Program-made: the position numbers and the translations under genes
The notes under the pieces: model-generated
What the model was told of the DNA's origin: nothing
Seen by the model: only the letters and a program-made list of their open reading frames with translations
Databases searched by the model: none
DNA from: a virus
Virus record (IMG/VR): IMGVR_UViG_3300044712_000587
Coordinates: 1 to 48,272 of that record
DNA length: 48,272 bases
Reading direction: 5' to 3' (one strand)
In this document: piece by piece, positions 138 through 48,272 of the stretch
How positions within the stretch are numbered: position 1 is the stretch's first letter
How the letters are laid out: each line of letters begins with the position of its first letter

Positions 138-731
138 CAGCGCCCCCCCACGTCATCAGGTCGACCACCACACACCCCCTATTGTCTAGCAGCACCCGCG
201 AATCAGGTGCCAACCGTTAAACAGCAAATAAATAGAATAAGCCCATGCACAAGCCGAGCCAGGGGATAGACCCCCACAGAGCCAACCTTGCGCCCCTATT
301 ATGCGCTTCCCCTCTAGCTGTAACCCTTTGCAGGCGCAGGGGATAGGAGCGCGCCCCCGCTTGCAGCCGCTTTGCCGGCCGTTCGGCACTGGCGGAAACC
401 CGGCGCACAAGTCCGGCGCTTTGCCGACAATACGGTATCCAGACGCCGACTCTGTAGACACGCGCGCCCGAGCCCTGGAAGCACGAGCAGCAGCACGCCG
501 CAGCCCCACGCGCCCAGGTGAGCCAGCAGACGCAGCAGCACGCTTGAGCCCTGCCACGCTCCAGGCAGCACGCGCGCAGTATCCCCCCGCCGGCACGCAG
601 CAGCAGAGAGAGCAGCCCCCGCCCCATCCCAGGCGCAGAGGCAAGGACAGGCGCAGGAGCAGCAGCAGGACGCACACAGCACGCGCCCAGGCAGCGAACG
701 CAGAGCAGCACGAGCCCAGGCCCGTCCCTCT

Positions 732-923: not shown

Positions 924-954
924 AACAGTTGATACTCGCGGATTAACAGTTGAT
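924..954. repeat. Paired AACAGTTGAT site, 21-bp spacing (site 1)
   Basis: AACAGTTGAT occurs at 924-933 and again at 945-954, exactly 21 bp apart, that is two helical turns. The element between them, CTCGCGG, is shared with site 2. Because AACWGTT is itself nearly palindromic, the whole 28-bp unit is close to a palindrome with AACWGTT arms. It matches the unit inside the replication gene at 34847-34874. It is probably a binding site for a dimeric or tetrameric regulator or for the replication initiator. Confidence 0.7.
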
Positions 955-1047: not shown

Positions 1048-1078
1048 AACGGTTGCTGCTCGCGGGTTAACTGTTGAG
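1048..1078. repeat. Paired AACNGTTG site, 21-bp spacing (site 2)
   Basis: AACGGTTGCT (1048-1057) and AACTGTTGAG (1069-1078) are spaced 21 bp apart with CTCGCGG between, aligning with site 1 at a constant 124-bp offset over more than 30 bases with about six differences. It lies about 20 bp from the candidate leftward -10 element, where a bound protein would block or stimulate transcription. Confidence 0.7.
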
Positions 1079-1098
1079 GGCGCATCCGGTCGATATCT

Positions 1099-1127
1099 TG
1101 TATACCATCCCTTTCAGTACTTCGTAA
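1099..1127 (-). promoter_or_regulatory. Candidate leftward sigma70-type promoter
   Basis: On the minus strand, TTACGA (1122-1127) is followed after 17 bases by TATACA (1099-1104), preceded by TGG as in an extended -10. The -35 match is weak and the -10 is good. It would fire leftward across repeat sites 2 and 1 toward the AAA+ operon, whose first recognisable gene is about 1 kb downstream through the circular joint. Confidence 0.35.
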
Positions 1128-1228
1128 GAGACTAGATACATCCTGATAATAGTACCGCGCGCGTAGCAAGGGGCTTGCCAAGGTGTTCAGTGAAGTCTGT
1201 GAAGTTGAGTCGGCCGCGAGCGGGCCGA

Positions 1229-1263
1229 AACGGTTGACACCGGATTCCGGGCGGGTGTAGGCT
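1229..1263 (+). promoter_or_regulatory. Candidate late promoter with overlapping half-site
   Basis: TTGACA (1234-1239) is a perfect -35, followed after 18 bases by TAGGCT (1258-1263), a weak -10. The -35 overlaps AACGGTTGA (1229-1237), preceded by GGCCGAA exactly as in the replication-gene site at about 34841. A factor binding the AACRGTTGA word would therefore sit on this promoter. The predicted start point falls at or next to the ATG of the small terminase gene at 1271, so the mRNA may be leaderless. Confidence 0.4.
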
Positions 1264-32817: not shown

Positions 32818-33062
32818 CGATCCCTCTTGAATCGGCCGCGCTCCGGGCACGTGGCCCAATGAGACTGAGACGCATAGAACAGCCCGGCCGACTGGCCGTT
32901 ATCCCACGTCTCCGGCTGGATCATCGTAGCTCCGGCGTTCATGGGCATTCGACGCCCGGCCGGAGTCTCGTACCATTCGATAGGCGCCCCGCACCCGGAA
33001 CACAGCCCCGCGCCCTTCGCCGGCACGAACAGAACGAGCCGCTGTTCGGTATCGCCCTTCAC
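32814..33062 (-). CDS. Small zinc-ribbon protein (82 aa)
   Basis: The GTG at 33062 overlaps the previous TGA (GTGA), the operon's usual coupling, so it is preferred to the upstream GTG. CSGCGAPIEWYETPAG and later WATCPERGRFK give a CxxC plus Cys/His site of rubredoxin or ribbon type. It is probably a nucleic-acid or host-factor binding module; no family is named. Confidence 0.72.
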   Translation of the reverse strand: MKGDTEQRLVLFVPAKGAGLCSGCGAPIEWYETPAGRRMPMNAGATMIQPETWDNGQSAGLFYASQSHWATCPERGRFKRDR

Positions 33063-33595
33063 CGCTTCCACTCCGAAAGCTCGTCGTCCGCGAACCGCTT
33101 CGGCTTGATCGGATTGAGCCGCTGATAGACCGGATTCGTCGCGCGACAGTTACACCGCCGGACCCAGGCGTGCGGAGGATGCGGTTTGTCCCGCCCGCAC
33201 TCCTTCAGTTCGTACTTGTGATCGTTGTCATGCTCCAGCTTCTCAACCGGGATCCCGTGGTCGCGGCCGACGCACCAGAACGGCTCCCAACCCGTGTCCT
33301 GACACACCCCGCACCACTCGACCGCTTCGGCCTCCGGGCTGCCCGAAGGCAAGCTCCGCCGCTCCACGATGGCGCGGGCTTCGTCGGCGTACCGCAACAC
33401 CGTCGAGATCACCGGCAACGCGCGCTCGCGCTCGCACGCCATGATGACGGCCTTGCGGAACACGGCAATCGGCACCGACCGCCGCTTGAAGATCTGAAAC
33501 CACATCTCCGCGTTGTCGACAGACATCTTCTTCCGGTAGGCGTTGTGCATTTGCCGGAGAACCGCGAAGAACTCGTCGCGCTCGTTCTCGTTCAT
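33059..33595 (-). CDS. Helicase-loader-like replication protein (178 aa)
   Basis: The N-terminal 75 residues (FFAVLRQMHNAYRKKMSVDN then WFQIFKRRSVPIAVFRKAV and a ST.LRYADEA end) resemble the helical domain of phage helicase loaders of the G39P/replisome-organizer type. The C-terminal half has CGVCQDTGW and RCNCRAT, a probable zinc site. With the initiator protein three genes upstream it would deliver the host DnaB-type helicase. The N-domain similarity is by pattern only. Confidence 0.55.
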   Translation of the reverse strand: MNENERDEFFAVLRQMHNAYRKKMSVDNAEMWFQIFKRRSVPIAVFRKAVIMACERERALPVISTVLRYADEARAIVERRSLPSGSPEAEAVEWCGVCQDTGWEPFWCVGRDHGIPVEKLEHDNDHKYELKECGRDKPHPPHAWVRRCNCRATNPVYQRLNPIKPKRFADDELSEWKR

Positions 33596-34003: not shown

Positions 34004-34321
34004 TCAGATCTCCAATTCGGAGATCAAAACGTTGATGTGGCCGGTCGCTTCGTCGATGCGTCGGGTCATGGAGTCGATGCCGCGCGTCAGCGGAGCGGCC
34101 CCGTGGCCGGGGCTCTGCTGCCCTTCGGAGCGCACCTGTGGCGTGCTGTTCGACACCGGACCCAGACGCTCGGACAGCAGGCTCAGGCGCTCCTGCAAGC
34201 GGTTGATCGAATTGTCCAGTTCGTTCATGGCCGTGCCCATCGACGAGCCCACGGGTCGCGGAGGTTCGACCGCCTTGCAGATCAGCCCCTCGGGATTCCT
34301 CAACGAGTCGAAATGTGCCAT
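34004..34321 (-). CDS. Hypothetical protein with coiled-coil segments (105 aa)
   Basis: It starts MAHFDSLRNPEGLICKAVEP. Two heptad-like segments (MNELDNSINRLQERLSLLSE; MTRRIDEATGHINVLISELE) are separated by a flexible linker with Ser/Pro/Gly. It may be a dimerising accessory to the replication initiator encoded just upstream. No family is recognised. Confidence 0.72.
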   Translation of the reverse strand: MAHFDSLRNPEGLICKAVEPPRPVGSSMGTAMNELDNSINRLQERLSLLSERLGPVSNSTPQVRSEGQQSPGHGAAPLTRGIDSMTRRIDEATGHINVLISELEI

Positions 34322-34342
34322 CTTCGCCCTCTCTTTCGTGGC

Positions 34343-35260
34343 TCAGTCCTCGAAGTCCTCAGAGCGCAAGCGTGAGCCCGCGCCGCGCCTGAGTTCCAGG
34401 TGTTCCGAGATTTCTTCCTCGGTCCTGAAGGGAATCGGCGTCTCGGCATCATGCCAGCGACCTCGCTGGAGCCAGCGCGCCGGATAGACCACCATGCGCC
34501 GCGCGTTCGCATGGGTGTACGGATTGTCGGCGAAGCGTTGCGCGCCCGCGATGATGTCTTCGACCTCCGCCGGGCTCGGGTCAATCGCCAGCCACACGCC
34601 GTACGCCTCTTGCTTCTCCACGGGCCTCGGGTAGACCGACCAGAAGCGCTCGAACTCGGGCGGATACACCACCCGGCCCCGCATCACGTAGTAGTCACCC
34701 TTGACCCCGTGCACCAGTCGAGCGCCCTCGGGAAGCGGGAAGTTCCTCGCCGCCAGCACCATGCCCCGCCGCCCACTAGGTACTTCTTCTCCGTTACTTG
34801 GTACTAGATCGAAGATTGGAGTACTGACTACCTCTCGCGCGGCCGAAACAGTTGATCCGCGCGCAACAACTGTTAATGCCGACTCGGGCAACGCTCCCGC
34901 AGAGCGCGCGATAGAGACGGCACGCTCCCCTGACTCGCCCCACATCACCGCGTACTGGCGCACGAGCCGCGCCACCACATCGGGCTCGACCCCCTTCAGC
35001 CGATTGCCGAGTTCGATGATCCAGTGCTGCCGCACGTTCGGATTCGGCGGCTTCAGCGGCCATGTCGGGATCTGAAGCACGCCGCGCTCGTACGGCCAAC
35101 CGAGCTTGGTAGCGACCGCTTCGATAGCCTTCGGCACCACGGCGACACCGAACGGGTCACAGAGCGTCAGCGCGTCAAGCGCCATCAGCCGCTCCGCCGG
35201 CTTCAGCGGCCTCACCAACTCGGATGCGAACCTCAACGAGATGCCGCCCAGGAGCCCCAT
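34343..35260 (-). CDS. Replication initiator / origin-binding protein (305 aa)
   Basis: The C-terminal part (FERFWSVYPRPVEKQEAYGV, later YPARWLQRGRWHD) is the hallmark of phage replication proteins that recruit helicase (lambda O or loader type). The N-terminal 110 residues are helical and basic, as expected for a winged-helix DNA-binding domain. The middle (residues about 115-165) is a linker whose DNA carries the phased repeats at 34779-34874. This is the arrangement of lambda O, where the origin lies inside the initiator gene between its two domains. The start MGLLGGISLRF lies right after the stop of the gene before it. Confidence 0.75.
   Translation of the reverse strand: MGLLGGISLRFASELVRPLKPAERLMALDALTLCDPFGVAVVPKAIEAVATKLGWPYERGVLQIPTWPLKPPNPNVRQHWIIELGNRLKGVEPDVVARLVRQYAVMWGESGERAVSIARSAGALPESALTVVARGSTVSAAREVVSTPIFDLVPSNGEEVPSGRRGMVLAARNFPLPEGARLVHGVKGDYYVMRGRVVYPPEFERFWSVYPRPVEKQEAYGVWLAIDPSPAEVEDIIAGAQRFADNPYTHANARRMVVYPARWLQRGRWHDAETPIPFRTEEEISEHLELRRGAGSRLRSEDFED
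34779..34825. repeat. Three GGTACT-type repeats at about 21-bp spacing (AT-richer)
   Basis: GGTACT (34779-34784), GGTACT (34800-34805) and AGTACT (34820-34825) are spaced 21 and 20 bp, that is two helical turns, in the AT-richest stretch of this gene. AGTACT (1116-1121) and the reverse complement of GGTACT (1151-1156) also occur beside repeat site 2 in the control region. They are candidate initiator binding sites next to a DNA-unwinding element. Confidence 0.6.
34847..34874. repeat. Near-palindromic AACAGTTG/CAACTGTT unit (site 3, putative origin)
   Basis: AACAGTTG (34847-34854) and CAACTGTT (34867-34874) are inverted arms of a 28-bp near-palindrome with a GC-rich centre; arm spacing is 21 bp as in sites 1 and 2 at 924 and 1048. 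It lies inside the initiator gene, 22 bp from the GGTACT array, and is preceded by GGCCGAAA as at the late-promoter half-site at 1229. This is a good candidate for the replication origin or an autoregulatory operator. Confidence 0.6.
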
Positions 35261-35261
35261 G

Positions 35262-35519
35262 TCACGAGTCCATCTTCACTAGCAGGGGAAATCGAGCGTG
35301 CGCGTCTCGAAGATCGGCACGAGTGAATCCGAAACGGTCATGCTGACCGGCCTGGACATCGGCCTCGAACTCCGCCAGGAGACGCAGCGTTTCCGCGTGA
35401 CAGCCCGCACAGTGGTCCTCACCAGACCACTCTGGATCGATGACGGGACGCCCAAACTGGCACAGCGGCTCGGACTCGGGCGCCTCGTCAGACTCAGCCT
35501 CAGCCTTGCGCCGAGACAC
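35262..35519 (-). CDS. Small Cys-containing protein (85 aa)
   Basis: The protein has an acidic start (SRRKAEAESDEAPESEPL) and a region with CQFG and CAGC (residues 20-40) that could bind zinc, followed by a helix (ETLRLLAEFEADVQAGQH). It lies between recT and the initiator gene, so it may be a small replication or recombination partner. No family is recognised. Confidence 0.72.
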   Translation of the reverse strand: MSRRKAEAESDEAPESEPLCQFGRPVIDPEWSGEDHCAGCHAETLRLLAEFEADVQAGQHDRFGFTRADLRDAHARFPLLVKMDS

Positions 35520-35521
35520 CG

Positions 35522-36535
35522 CTAGTCCTCGAACAGCCCGCGCACCACATCCGAGCCCTCACCGTCCGGCGACGGGCTCGAAGAAGCGCCTGGAGCGTCC
35601 TGCGGGGGTGTTGCAGGAGCCCCAGGCGCCGGGGACGGCGGCATGGCTTCCGCCGGGGCTGTGGCGGCAGGGGCGCCGCCAGAGAGCTTGTCCTTCAGGG
35701 CTTCGAGCGCCGGCTTCTGCTCGGCCGGCGGAAGGTCGAACACCTGGACGCCAATCTTCGCCGGATCGAAGTCCCCCCACTGACCGTCACCACGATCCGC
35801 CCTGTCGTCGAGTTCGAGCGCGCGCGACAGCAGTTGCATGGCCTCCGATGCCTTCGGCAGATACTTCGCCGCCACCCGCACGACGGTCTTCAGTGCCATC
35901 GGGCCGAAGTCAGTCACCCACGGGCCGGAGTCCTTCGCGCGCGAGCGGTTCCGGTGCGCCTCGATATCGGTGCGCGGCAGGAGCGTCAGTTGCTTGCCGC
36001 CCCCGCGAAGGTGCGCCATGACGTAGGCAGCCACCACATCTCCGGGCTCGGCCGCGCCGCAGAGCCACCAGGGACGGTGAATGAGCTTCTGTTCCGACAG
36101 TTCCGCCTCGAAGTAGTCGTTCTGGTAGACCAGTTGAGGCTGCATGTCCATGACGGACTTCGCACGGTCGATCAGGTTGCGGTACCCCTGATACCCGACC
36201 ATGAAGGTTGCCTCCATCTGGTACCCGCCGTTCGGCTGTTTCACGTTGAACGGCACCAGCCACGCCTCTTGCATCGGACCGCCGAGCGCCAACCCGAGCT
36301 TCAGGGATTCCATGACGCCAGCCAGGAGGCTCTTGTGTGTGCACTTCCTCAGCTTCTCGTCATAGAAGATCGTGTTGAACGCGATACGGATCAGCCGGGC
36401 CGGATCCCCGACGTTGCGCGGTGCGGCCTTCGCCATCGCCGGCATGTTGACCTTGAACAGCGTCTCGATACTCTGCGCTTGCTGCGCTGGAGCGACAATC
36501 TGCGTCGACTCCGCCGCCTCGTTCCTTTTCGCCAT
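35522..36535 (-). CDS. recT: RecT single-strand annealing protein
   Basis: This 337-aa protein is of the RecT family, which anneals complementary single strands during recombination. Recognisable blocks are LLAGVMESLKLGLALGGPMQ (the conserved RecT core with E...L.LG), FMVGYQGYRNLIDRAKSVMD and the C-terminal core WVTDFGPMALKTVVRVAAKY. The last 90 residues are Pro/Ala/Ser-rich and end in an acidic GLFED tip. A strong promoter lies just upstream. It works with the YqaJ exonuclease encoded in the same operon. Confidence 0.93.
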   Translation of the reverse strand: MAKRNEAAESTQIVAPAQQAQSIETLFKVNMPAMAKAAPRNVGDPARLIRIAFNTIFYDEKLRKCTHKSLLAGVMESLKLGLALGGPMQEAWLVPFNVKQPNGGYQMEATFMVGYQGYRNLIDRAKSVMDMQPQLVYQNDYFEAELSEQKLIHRPWWLCGAAEPGDVVAAYVMAHLRGGGKQLTLLPRTDIEAHRNRSRAKDSGPWVTDFGPMALKTVVRVAAKYLPKASEAMQLLSRALELDDRADRGDGQWGDFDPAKIGVQVFDLPPAEQKPALEALKDKLSGGAPAATAPAEAMPPSPAPGAPATPPQDAPGASSSPSPDGEGSDVVRGLFED

Positions 36536-38383: not shown

Positions 38384-39322
38384 TTACTTCTTCCCCGCGC
38401 TCCGCCTCAGCACACGGAACTCGGACTCCTTCACCACGTACTCGTCGCGGTGTTGCCACTTGTGAGAGTAGGACACGCCGTTCGGCAGCCGGCCGATAGA
38501 GGCGTCCCCAATCGCCGCCCGGAACTGGTTGTCCATCAGGCTCACGATCTTCTCGCCCTCGTCGATCAGCGCCTTGCCCCTCACGCGCTCGGCGTCCCAC
38601 TCCATCGACTCCGGCGGCAACGCGATGACCGCGCCTGTGTCCTTCGGGTAGAGCTTCCTGAGAAACGCCTTCGTTTCCTCGGAGCCGTCGATGTTCGGCG
38701 GGATGCGCGTCTCCAGCCGGTACAGGAACTCCAACTCCGACCGCCGCATCAACTCGATGAAGGCGGAGTCCCGCATCACCTTCGCCCAACGGAACTGATT
38801 GCCACCGACCAGGGCCGCGAGATAGGCGTGCGGAGCGCCAGTAACCATCATTTGGTGCTGGCACTGAACCACGTAGTAGATCGGCGGTTCGTTCTCCCAC
38901 TCGTCCGCGAAGTACGCCGAGACGTTCTTCACTTCGAGCGGCACCGGCACGCCCTCGTCGACGGCAATCGCGTCCAGGGACGCCGCCAGCCTCGGATCCT
39001 CGCGCCAGACATGCACCGTGATCGGCTTCTCCCGGCTGACCGGCATCCCCGTCACCTTGCCGAACCGCTCAACGATGACGGGCTCCAGGCTCTTGCCCCA
39101 ATAGAGCGCTTCGTTCAGCCGCTCGGCCGCTTCGCGGTCTTCCTCGACCGAGCCGACTTTCTTGTGGTACAGCGTGAACGGAGACTCGAAGCGCGAGACA
39201 CCACAGATGATCGGAGCGTCCGAAGCCCCGATGCGCGTTGCGCGATTCGCCAGCCACGTCGCCTCGTCCTCGACGACCGAAACGCTCTGCTCGACGAAGA
39301 ACTCCGGGAAGAACTCAGCCAC
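38384..39322 (-). CDS. YqaJ-type viral recombinase/exonuclease
   Basis: This 312-aa protein matches the YqaJ/lambda-exonuclease family: RIGASDAPIICGVSRFESPF at the start, LAASLDAIAV and PLEVKNVSA giving the Asp and Glu-x-Lys of the PD-(D/E)xK site, and VQCQHQMMVTGAPH. It degrades one strand of duplex DNA to give the single strand that RecT anneals. It starts at GTG overlapping the previous stop by eight bases. The length is normal for the family. Confidence 0.92.
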   Translation of the reverse strand: MAEFFPEFFVEQSVSVVEDEATWLANRATRIGASDAPIICGVSRFESPFTLYHKKVGSVEEDREAAERLNEALYWGKSLEPVIVERFGKVTGMPVSREKPITVHVWREDPRLAASLDAIAVDEGVPVPLEVKNVSAYFADEWENEPPIYYVVQCQHQMMVTGAPHAYLAALVGGNQFRWAKVMRDSAFIELMRRSELEFLYRLETRIPPNIDGSEETKAFLRKLYPKDTGAVIALPPESMEWDAERVRGKALIDEGEKIVSLMDNQFRAAIGDASIGRLPNGVSYSHKWQHRDEYVVKESEFRVLRRSAGKK

Positions 39323-45506: not shown

Positions 45507-45880
45507 CACCGCACCCCCTGGACACGAGAGATCCGCGCCGTTGTCGGCCCGGTCGATTGAACGCGAAGACCCGCAGCACGCGCCGCAGCCGCTACGGATT
45601 GAACCGCCACCGAACGCCGGATCGCGTTGACGAGCCCCGCGCGCCCGTCGTCGCTTGTGATATCGAAACGCGCGCCGCCCCACATCACACCAGCCCGAGC
45701 GCTTTCGACATCGGCCCGACCATCAGCCGAGACGACCATACGCCACGCGCCGCCCTGGACAATGATCGACTCACCGCGCCGCGTGACCGTCACCCCCTCC
45801 GCGTTGCCGGCAGCCGCCAACATCACGGGATTGACTTTGCCCAGGTTCACGGACGCTTGAAGCACAGACCAGCACGGCAT
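45506..45880 (-). CDS. Ycf35/DUF1257-like protein (124 aa)
   Basis: The length and layout match Ycf35/DUF1257: an N-terminal region VLQASVNLGKVNPVMLAAAG, strands EGVTVTRRGESIIVQGGAWR, and the family-type C-terminal helix then strand (NAIRRSVAVQSVAAAARAAG, LRVQSTGPTTARISRVQ). In cyanobacteria, plastids and phages this family is found with a Ycf46 ATPase. The ATG overlaps the ATPase stop (TGATG), so the two are coupled. Confidence 0.65.
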   Translation of the reverse strand: MPCWSVLQASVNLGKVNPVMLAAAGNAEGVTVTRRGESIIVQGGAWRMVVSADGRADVESARAGVMWGGARFDITSDDGRAGLVNAIRRSVAVQSVAAAARAAGLRVQSTGPTTARISRVQGVR

Positions 45881-47523
45881 CAGGCACCCCCCGTGAACGA
45901 GCGCCCTTTATCAGCGCTCAGAAGGCCCGCCCCGCTTTCGATTGACGCGGTTTCGATAATGCCCGCGCCAGGACCGTCGACCGCGCCAGGATAGAGCCCA
46001 GGCGCCGCCGCGTTGAGGTAGCGCCCGCGCGCATCCTTGCGGAGTGTGGCGATTGTTGAGGCGTCCGAGATATACAACGGAGTGATCAGGGACGCCGCAT
46101 CCCCCCATGAGATCCCGTAGTCACGGACGAGCGCGCACAGGTTCCGCAACTCCGCGCCCGAGTAGGGACGCTTGAGCAGTTCCGCCGGGAACGTCGACGG
46201 ATCCAGCCCGTGCGCTTTGGCTTGCTTTGCCAGGATGACCGGACGATCCGCCGGAGTGGGAAGATCGAAGAACCAGATACCCGCGCGGAAACGACGCAGC
46301 AGCGGCCCCGGCAGATTGATCAACGAATTGCACGACGCCACGACGAACACCCGATCATCGGACATGGCCGCAATCTGATCCACCACCAGCCGGATCCGTT
46401 CTTCGGAATCGCCGACGTAGCGCGAGCGCATCGCGCCCAGGTCGACCCGATAGCACGGCAGGTTGTACGACGCGCCGAGCGCTTTCGAGAATCCAGACTT
46501 ACCCGAGCCCCCAGGCCCGAGCGCGACCATCCCCGACCACCCCCGATCCTCGAATGCCTGGAGAAGCACGGCGAGCGCGTCAGACTGGACCCCCGACGAA
46601 TCAGTACCCGCCGCCCCGATGACCTTTTCGAGTTCTTCGATACGCGCGACCAACGACGGACGCGCCGCCGACCGCATGATCGAATCGGCCCACCATGCCG
46701 CCCGATCTTGCCCGCCCAGGTCCGCGAAGGTTTCACGCCCCCACTCAGGCAGCAGCCCGCGCGCCGACTTCAGAACGCCGATCTTCTGTTCATACACCGC
46801 GCGAGGATCGAGCGCGCGCCGCTCAGAAATCGCCACGCTTGCGGCTTGCTCCGCCGCAAACCTGGAGAGCCCGCGCGCCGCATCGACCGCCGCCGGCACC
46901 GCATCCGACCAGCCCGCCGCCACCATGCCGGCAGACTCCGCCGCTTGCGCCGTCTCTGTGATGATCGCGCGCAACTCATCGGCACGCGGTAGCGCGTCCG
47001 AGAGGTAATAGCAATCTTGCCCGAGACGGCTGGAGAGGTTCGAGAAGGACGCGCCGAGCAGCACGAGCAGCTTACCCGACGACTTGAACGAGTCCCGCAC
47101 GTTGCAGACCGCGCGCACCGCCGGCAGCGCTTGCGCGTCACCCGTCAGCAAGAGATCCGCATCATACAGACACCAGACGATCCGCCCCTGATAGACCGTA
47201 GTGACGATCTCCGCCGCTTCAGGAATCGACACGCCAATCGGCCCAGGCGCCGCAATCGGCCCGAAGTCCCCGCCGCCCGCTTGCGCTTTGGCGCCCTGGA
47301 CTTGTGCCAGGAAATCCGCGCCCGCTTTGTTGACACCGACGAGCCCCCGCACGCTATCCGACAGCACCACGGGCGCCGACTCACCCACGAGCCCCGCAAT
47401 CGACTTGACCGACGACCACGGATCCGACGTGGAGAGCGCGACAATCGGCACCGCCGCCGACCGCGCCGCTTTGAGAGACGCCACCCAACCGGGCGCCCCG
47501 TTGCCGTTCGCGTTCTCTGCCAT
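45880..47523 (-). CDS. Ycf46-like AAA+ ATPase with reduced core (547 aa)
   Basis: The N-domain (residues about 120-240) has the Ycf46-type pattern with SRLGQDCYYLSDALPRADEL and GLSRFAAEQAASVAI. TFADLGGQDRAAWW (about residue 268) leads into the AAA+ core. Walker A is GPGGSGKS with Lys342, second strand YRVDLGAM, then VGDSEERIRLVVDQIAAM and sensor-1 FVVASCN (Asn399). Only 57 residues separate Lys342 and Asn399, so the usual Walker B strand and DE motif appear absent. An arginine-finger-type LLRRFRAGIW follows. The ATG at 47523 has GGGGGTG upstream. Confidence 0.8.
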   Translation of the reverse strand: MAENANGNGAPGWVASLKAARSAAVPIVALSTSDPWSSVKSIAGLVGESAPVVLSDSVRGLVGVNKAGADFLAQVQGAKAQAGGGDFGPIAAPGPIGVSIPEAAEIVTTVYQGRIVWCLYDADLLLTGDAQALPAVRAVCNVRDSFKSSGKLLVLLGASFSNLSSRLGQDCYYLSDALPRADELRAIITETAQAAESAGMVAAGWSDAVPAAVDAARGLSRFAAEQAASVAISERRALDPRAVYEQKIGVLKSARGLLPEWGRETFADLGGQDRAAWWADSIMRSAARPSLVARIEELEKVIGAAGTDSSGVQSDALAVLLQAFEDRGWSGMVALGPGGSGKSGFSKALGASYNLPCYRVDLGAMRSRYVGDSEERIRLVVDQIAAMSDDRVFVVASCNSLINLPGPLLRRFRAGIWFFDLPTPADRPVILAKQAKAHGLDPSTFPAELLKRPYSGAELRNLCALVRDYGISWGDAASLITPLYISDASTIATLRKDARGRYLNAAAPGLYPGAVDGPGAGIIETASIESGAGLLSADKGRSFTGGA

Positions 47524-47583
47524 GACACCCCCAAGAAGAAGCACGCGCGCCCAGATGAACCCGAACGCGCGCGCCCCGATTGA

Positions 47584-48055: not shown

Positions 48056-48217
48056 TCACCCCTTGAGAAAATGCACGTCTACGAACCACCGCGCGCCCAT
48101 CAGGGACACGCGAAACCCCCGACACACGAACGCGCGCCGCACCTGGACCCCGAGCCCGCACGCGCGGACCAGCCGCCCAGACACGACCACGACTTCCCAG
48201 GATGCGCGCCGCCTCAC
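48056..48217 (-). CDS. Small beta-rich protein (53 aa) across the contig joint
   Basis: The GTG start at 48217 overlaps the TGA of the 22-aa ORF (GTGA). The product reads WEVVVVSGRLVRACGLGVQV then RRAFVCRGFRVSLMGARW, a compact strand-rich peptide. Longer starts in the same frame exist (48256 and, across the circular joint, near 160). The 5' end is repeated at positions 1-72. The function is unknown. Confidence 0.5.
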   Translation of the reverse strand: MRRRASWEVVVVSGRLVRACGLGVQVRRAFVCRGFRVSLMGARWFVDVHFLKG

Positions 48218-48272
48218 TTCCGCCCCCGCAGCGCCGCGCGCAGCCCTTCGAGCCACCAGCCCGCCAGGAACG
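48146..48272. repeat. Terminal direct repeat, right copy (circular overlap)
   Basis: This is the exact second copy of bases 1-127. It shows that the contig closes on itself and that the AAA+ operon continues across the joint into the control region at the left end. Confidence 0.93.

Follow-up and report, generated by a model that had tools for sequence, protein, structure and literature searches.

A candidate replication origin within the linker-coding DNA of a phage initiator gene and a related module in the early/late control region

Does the DNA in the middle of a phage initiator gene also serve as the replication origin of that phage? The question is raised by an initiator-like gene in the stretch of DNA analysed here (the window, an IMG/VR virus record with a length of 48,272 bases), in which short phased words lie beside AT-rich DNA (Table 1). 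The record carries an identical 127-bp direct repeat at both ends (1-127 and 48146-48272) and is therefore probably a complete genome, either with a circular map of about 48,145 bp or with terminal redundancy. The late genes run rightward from ~1.27 kb and the recognisable replication and recombination genes run leftward, from about 30 to 48 kb. Near the start of the leftward operon a 554-aa protein (45880-47544, minus strand) contains an AAA-family ATPase domain (PF00004, E 5e-9; phrog_8638, unknown function). The region 430-850, between two divergent gene blocks, is of low complexity, rich in CAG/CAGCAC and looks non-coding, and within it GGCTGGC/GGTTAGC words recur near 740-825; a similar stretch is found in L004, a related phage contig with a 76% identical terminase.

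Table 1. Coordinates of the features discussed in the text (positions in the window; for the protein, residues).
Feature	Position	Strand	Basis or remark
Initiator-like gene, 305 aa	34343..35260	-	phrog_270 replication initiation protein
Protein layout	helical N-domain ~9-130; disordered linker 131-170; C-domain ~181-300		AlphaFold2 model
Candidate embedded origin, codons 128-162, in disordered linker	34775..34879	-	codon score; pLDDT
AT-rich DNA, candidate unwinding element	34776..34835	.	genome's second least stable 60 bp (nearest-neighbour scan)
AGTACT word 1	34821..34826	-	sequence; 21 bp from word 2
AGTACC word 2	34800..34805	-	sequence; 21 bp from word 3
AGTACC word 3	34779..34784	-	sequence
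AACWGTT pair, 28-bp near-palindrome AACAGTTGATCCGCGCGCAACAACTGTT	34847..34874	.	sequence
Intergenic pair copy AACGGTTGCTGCTCGCGGGTTAACTGTT	1048..1075	.	sequence
Second intergenic pair copy AACAGTTGATACTCGCGGATTAACAGTT	924..951	.	sequence
Genome's least stable 60 bp	1093..1152	.	~18 bp after the 1048-1075 pair; AGTACT 1116, start of AGTACC 1151
Single AACGGTT arm overlapping TTGACA-like hexamer	1229..1235	+	before the gene at 1271
RecT annealing protein	35522-36535	leftward
YqaJ-type exonuclease	38384-39322	leftward

The match of the initiator to phrog_270 (E 7e-9) is confined to residues 197-273. In the AlphaFold2 model, based on an alignment of 33 sequences, the linker residues have pLDDT values below 50 and are flanked by better-ordered domains. 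The initial annotation had placed the site in DNA encoding the linker between two domains, and codons 128-162 do coincide with the predicted disordered residues 131-170. No match to any known DNA-binding family was found for the N-domain, and a search for Phage_rep_O (PF04492) gave no Pfam match in the initiator at E values up to 10; the initiator of Geobacillus phage GBK2, taken as reference, matches this family at 3.6e-29. The earlier description of the initiator as "lambda-O-like" is therefore kept for its architecture and C-terminal domain, in the sense of being built like lambda O, and does not extend to homology of the DNA-binding domain. A fold search gave no relative in PDB and weak matches in a viral library, replisome organizers among others (best E 1.1e-3). 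Downstream of the initiator lies a 178-aa gene (33059-33595, minus strand) that is 30% identical to the gene beside the initiator of a related record, G010; its product showed no match to a loader family and is a candidate helicase loader.

All 22-codon windows of the likely-gene set were scored with the codon usage of the genome itself as the standard, and among the 11,213 windows the lowest and most deviant score (z = -7.1) belonged to codons 142-163 of the initiator gene. The next-lowest were mostly situated in ORFs with arginine- and proline-rich translations, suggesting a wrong frame, and the lowest window free of this appearance reached z = -4.3. The deviating codons are mainly GTA, AGT and CTA, each accounting for 2-4% of its family in the genome. 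The stretch is under nucleotide-level constraint: in the linker, predicted to be disordered, nearly any protein sequence seems acceptable, whereas the DNA deviates from what is usual in the genome. The AT-rich DNA reported beside the repeats was also recovered: the 60 bp at 34776-34835 have a GC content of 0.43 against 0.65, enclose the AGTACY words and are exceeded in instability only by the intergenic 1093-1152.

Read along the sense strand, the triple consists of AGTACT (34826-34821), AGTACC (34805-34800) and AGTACC (34784-34779). The three phased words were present where they had been described but at spacings of 21 and 21 bp, not 21 and 20, because the third word had been counted one base early. 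The AACWGTT arms at 21 bp (AACAGTT, 34847-34853, and AACTGTT, 34868-34874) are as described, and the words of both sets are all short dyads or nearly so. The two sets lie 26.5 bp apart centre to centre, about 2.5 helical turns, so that each is phased in itself but out of phase with the other, and the proposed protein array on one face of the DNA holds for the triple and for the pair taken singly, but not for the two together.

In 20,000 trials of synonymous re-coding according to the genome's codon usage the AGTAC trio never arose, nor did the AACWGTT pair, for words that were picked post hoc. In a word-blind test for phased triples, 10 out of 200 synonymous shuffles of the gene equalled the real one (~5%), and lambda O, with its known iterons, scores no higher in the same test; the spacing of the three AGTACY copies is on its own weak evidence. 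This near-chance result would fit a stretch that is not an origin at all, being either an internal promoter or regulatory site, or foreign AT-rich linker DNA present in the initiator gene by chance. A disordered linker tolerates inserts, and the cumulative GC skew that had been proposed as a check of the origin is silent, with no sign change at 34.8 kb and an uninformative course, both of which are compatible with such a reading. It is nevertheless considered unlikely, as a consensus scan revealed no promoter- or terminator-like site in 34300-35300, a 28-bp dyad found again in the control region would be surprising in a foreign patch, and the position matches that of arrays in related initiator genes.

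The C-terminal domain of the initiator is widespread, with at least 298 matching stretches in viral contigs, of which 80 were examined. An array was defined as a 9-mer present at least three times, with 18-25 bp from each copy to the next. Of the 63 non-redundant genes that encode this C-terminal domain (the gene of the window being one of them), 24 contained such an array, compared to 3.5 expected from synonymous-codon shuffles. Among other genes of the same loci 7 of 231 contained an array, mostly with 18-bp periods resembling protein repeats. The array ended 25-172 nt upstream of the C-domain match, i.e. in the linker, in all but one of the initiator genes concerned (23/24), and spacings like 22-22-22 or 23-22-22, not being multiples of three, indicate DNA periods and not protein repeats. 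Examples are the arrays of L242, GGTCGGAAA, and L211, CCCGGACAC. Among the initiator genes L169-L248 each phage uses its own repeat word, and the initiators are distantly related. On this comparison of sequences, an origin in the initiator linker would be the expected anatomy. The gene of the window represents a low-copy, short-word case that the 9-mer definition does not pick up, and the same is true for lambda O. The initiator gene of G010 showed no array by this definition either, so linker arrays are not universal.

Close relatives of the initiator were found neither in viral contigs nor in genome contigs among the matches listed, and none of RecT and the exonuclease in viral contigs. A search with the initiator over 17 records with related terminases gave a single distant match, G010, and in none of the relatives among the matches listed did the same words occur inside the initiator gene.

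The AACWGTT pair is not specific to the candidate origin. The 28-bp arrangement AACWGTT-N14-AACWGTT has two further, non-coding copies upstream of the terminase genes, and the copies keep several spacer positions in common. A BLAST search with the element against the genome (E 5e-4) was discounted since random 105-bp stretches reach an equally good score in 8.5% of cases, and shuffles of the AACNGTT pairs were relied upon instead. Pairs of AACNGTT arms 20-22 bp apart occur three times in the genome and never in 300 dinucleotide shuffles, AGTACY-type pairs within 40 bp three times against 0.03 expected, and combinations of the two kinds of pair within 120 bp three times, with none in the shuffles. 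On the sense strand the second least stable 60 bp, which hold one AGTACT and AGTACC twice, begin ~12 bp beyond the pair inside the gene, and the module at 1048-1156 has the same word order and the same polarity; the two are ~14 kb apart on the circular map.

In L004 the intergenic region at 570-903, upstream of the late genes, contains nine AACNGTT arms, with AT-rich DNA after the arms and four GTAC words within 32 bp. Two pairs of these arms flank CCTAGG-centred palindromes, and the exact palindromes were found in no other viral contig. When contigs were searched with a loose operator pattern, the result was mostly apparent chance matches in AT-rich contigs; stricter patterns gave L004 only, or nothing.

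The intergenic copies make it possible, with a probability that we place at roughly one in three, that AACWGTT is the operator of a phage transcription regulator with its main sites in the intergenic early/late control region. The copy in the initiator gene would then let this regulator influence the origin, or transcription that passes through it, co-switching replication and expression, and AGTACY words with AT-rich DNA would alone make up the origin. The two pair copies and the single arm in the control region are in line with an operator, the single arm lying across a TTGACA-like hexamer ahead of the gene at 1271 (a promoter identified by eye and not called by the consensus scan), and so are the nine arms in the control region of L004. 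In addition, no distant second copy of the linker array was found in seven long relatives and in Arthrobacter phage Abidatro, which argues that origin iterons are not normally shared and that sharing with the control region may be peculiar to the present group. On the other hand, the intergenic copy too precedes very unstable DNA with AGTACY words, which suggests a single composite module, none of the genes scanned was recognised as a regulator, and consensus promoters were not found. The region 1048-1156 is most economically regarded, by analogy with oriR of SPP1, as another region that the same protein would bind, although with less certainty than the origin itself. A single protein-binding module, a 28-bp AACWGTT dyad with one of the genome's two least stable stretches and its AGTACY words behind it, may be used at two places, inside the initiator gene and in the region that controls early and late genes. 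One protein would then read nearly identical DNA both to fire the origin and to operate the early/late switch, and the two sites would be either twin origins or an origin coupled to an operator; we put this forward tentatively and rate its chances at somewhat less than even.

That 34775-34879 form a replication origin inside the initiator gene is the reading with the best support, and we consider it probable. It draws on the codon deviation, the instability of the DNA, the position in the disordered linker, the arrays in 24 of 63 related genes, the anatomy of lambda and GBK2, and the intergenic module. Set against it are the triple that lies near chance, relatives lacking the same words, the arrayless G010, a silent skew and an N-domain that matches no known DNA-binding family. 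The stretch would be a theta-type origin within the phage's own initiator coding sequence. The N-domain, presumed to be DNA-binding, would let the initiator bind the AGTACY words and the AACWGTT pair and bend or wrap the DNA, upon which the AT-rich 34776-34835 could open and the C-domain would help to load the helicase. Initiator binding to the words, the start of replication here and all later steps are what we infer from this arrangement. The analysis narrows a candidate origin to ~100 bp in phages for which the searches turned up no close relative in culture. Phased repeats in the linker appear to be frequent in a wide family of initiators (24 of the 63 genes examined), so that for many uncultured phages the initiator gene alone could reveal where the origin lies. 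The AACWGTT element common to gene and control region suggests either that replication is tied directly to the transcription switch or that the phage has two origins, as SPP1 does.

Several known systems show similar arrangements. The lambda origin sits in gene O and consists of four iterons and an AT-rich region (PMC7466680, PMC5043065). The iterons are spaced 20, 24 and 23 bp and are found in the corresponding place of O; in both phages the repeats lie in the middle of the initiator gene beside its AT-rich part, as dyads about two helical turns apart. Lambda has four 18-bp iterons while the words here are of two kinds and 6-7 bp long, and unlike in lambda O the N-domain has no Phage_rep_O match and the control region too contains part of the element. 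Among Arthrobacter phages, Abidatro, Marchesin and Renna12 share the C-terminal domain (35-43% identical) and RecE/RecT neighbours, but their N-domains and repeat words differ from those of the window. In Abidatro the linker array, TGGGGTGAA, has spacings of 30, 22, 22 and 22 and, unlike the pair of the window, occurs once in its genome. In Geobacillus phage GBK2, which shares homologous replication genes with SPP1 (PMC6316719), the linker of the initiator contains seven iterons; used as a comparison control, this phage shows the in-gene array but no distant second copy. The gp38 protein of Bacillus phage SPP1 binds both oriL, in gene 38, and oriR, which is intergenic, ~13 kb apart (PMC6316719). 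By this published description the plan resembles the present one, with one module in the initiator gene and one intergenic ~13-14 kb apart on a circular map, repeats and AT-rich DNA in both, and genes for an exonuclease and an annealing protein; the second, intergenic module of such a plan is present at 1048-1156 with its AACNGTT pair, least stable DNA, AGTACT and AGTACC. A point of difference from SPP1 is that no match to the gp39/gp38 families was detectable in the window. An origin inside an initiator gene is of a kind already known, and the sharing of the pair with the control region is the new detail.
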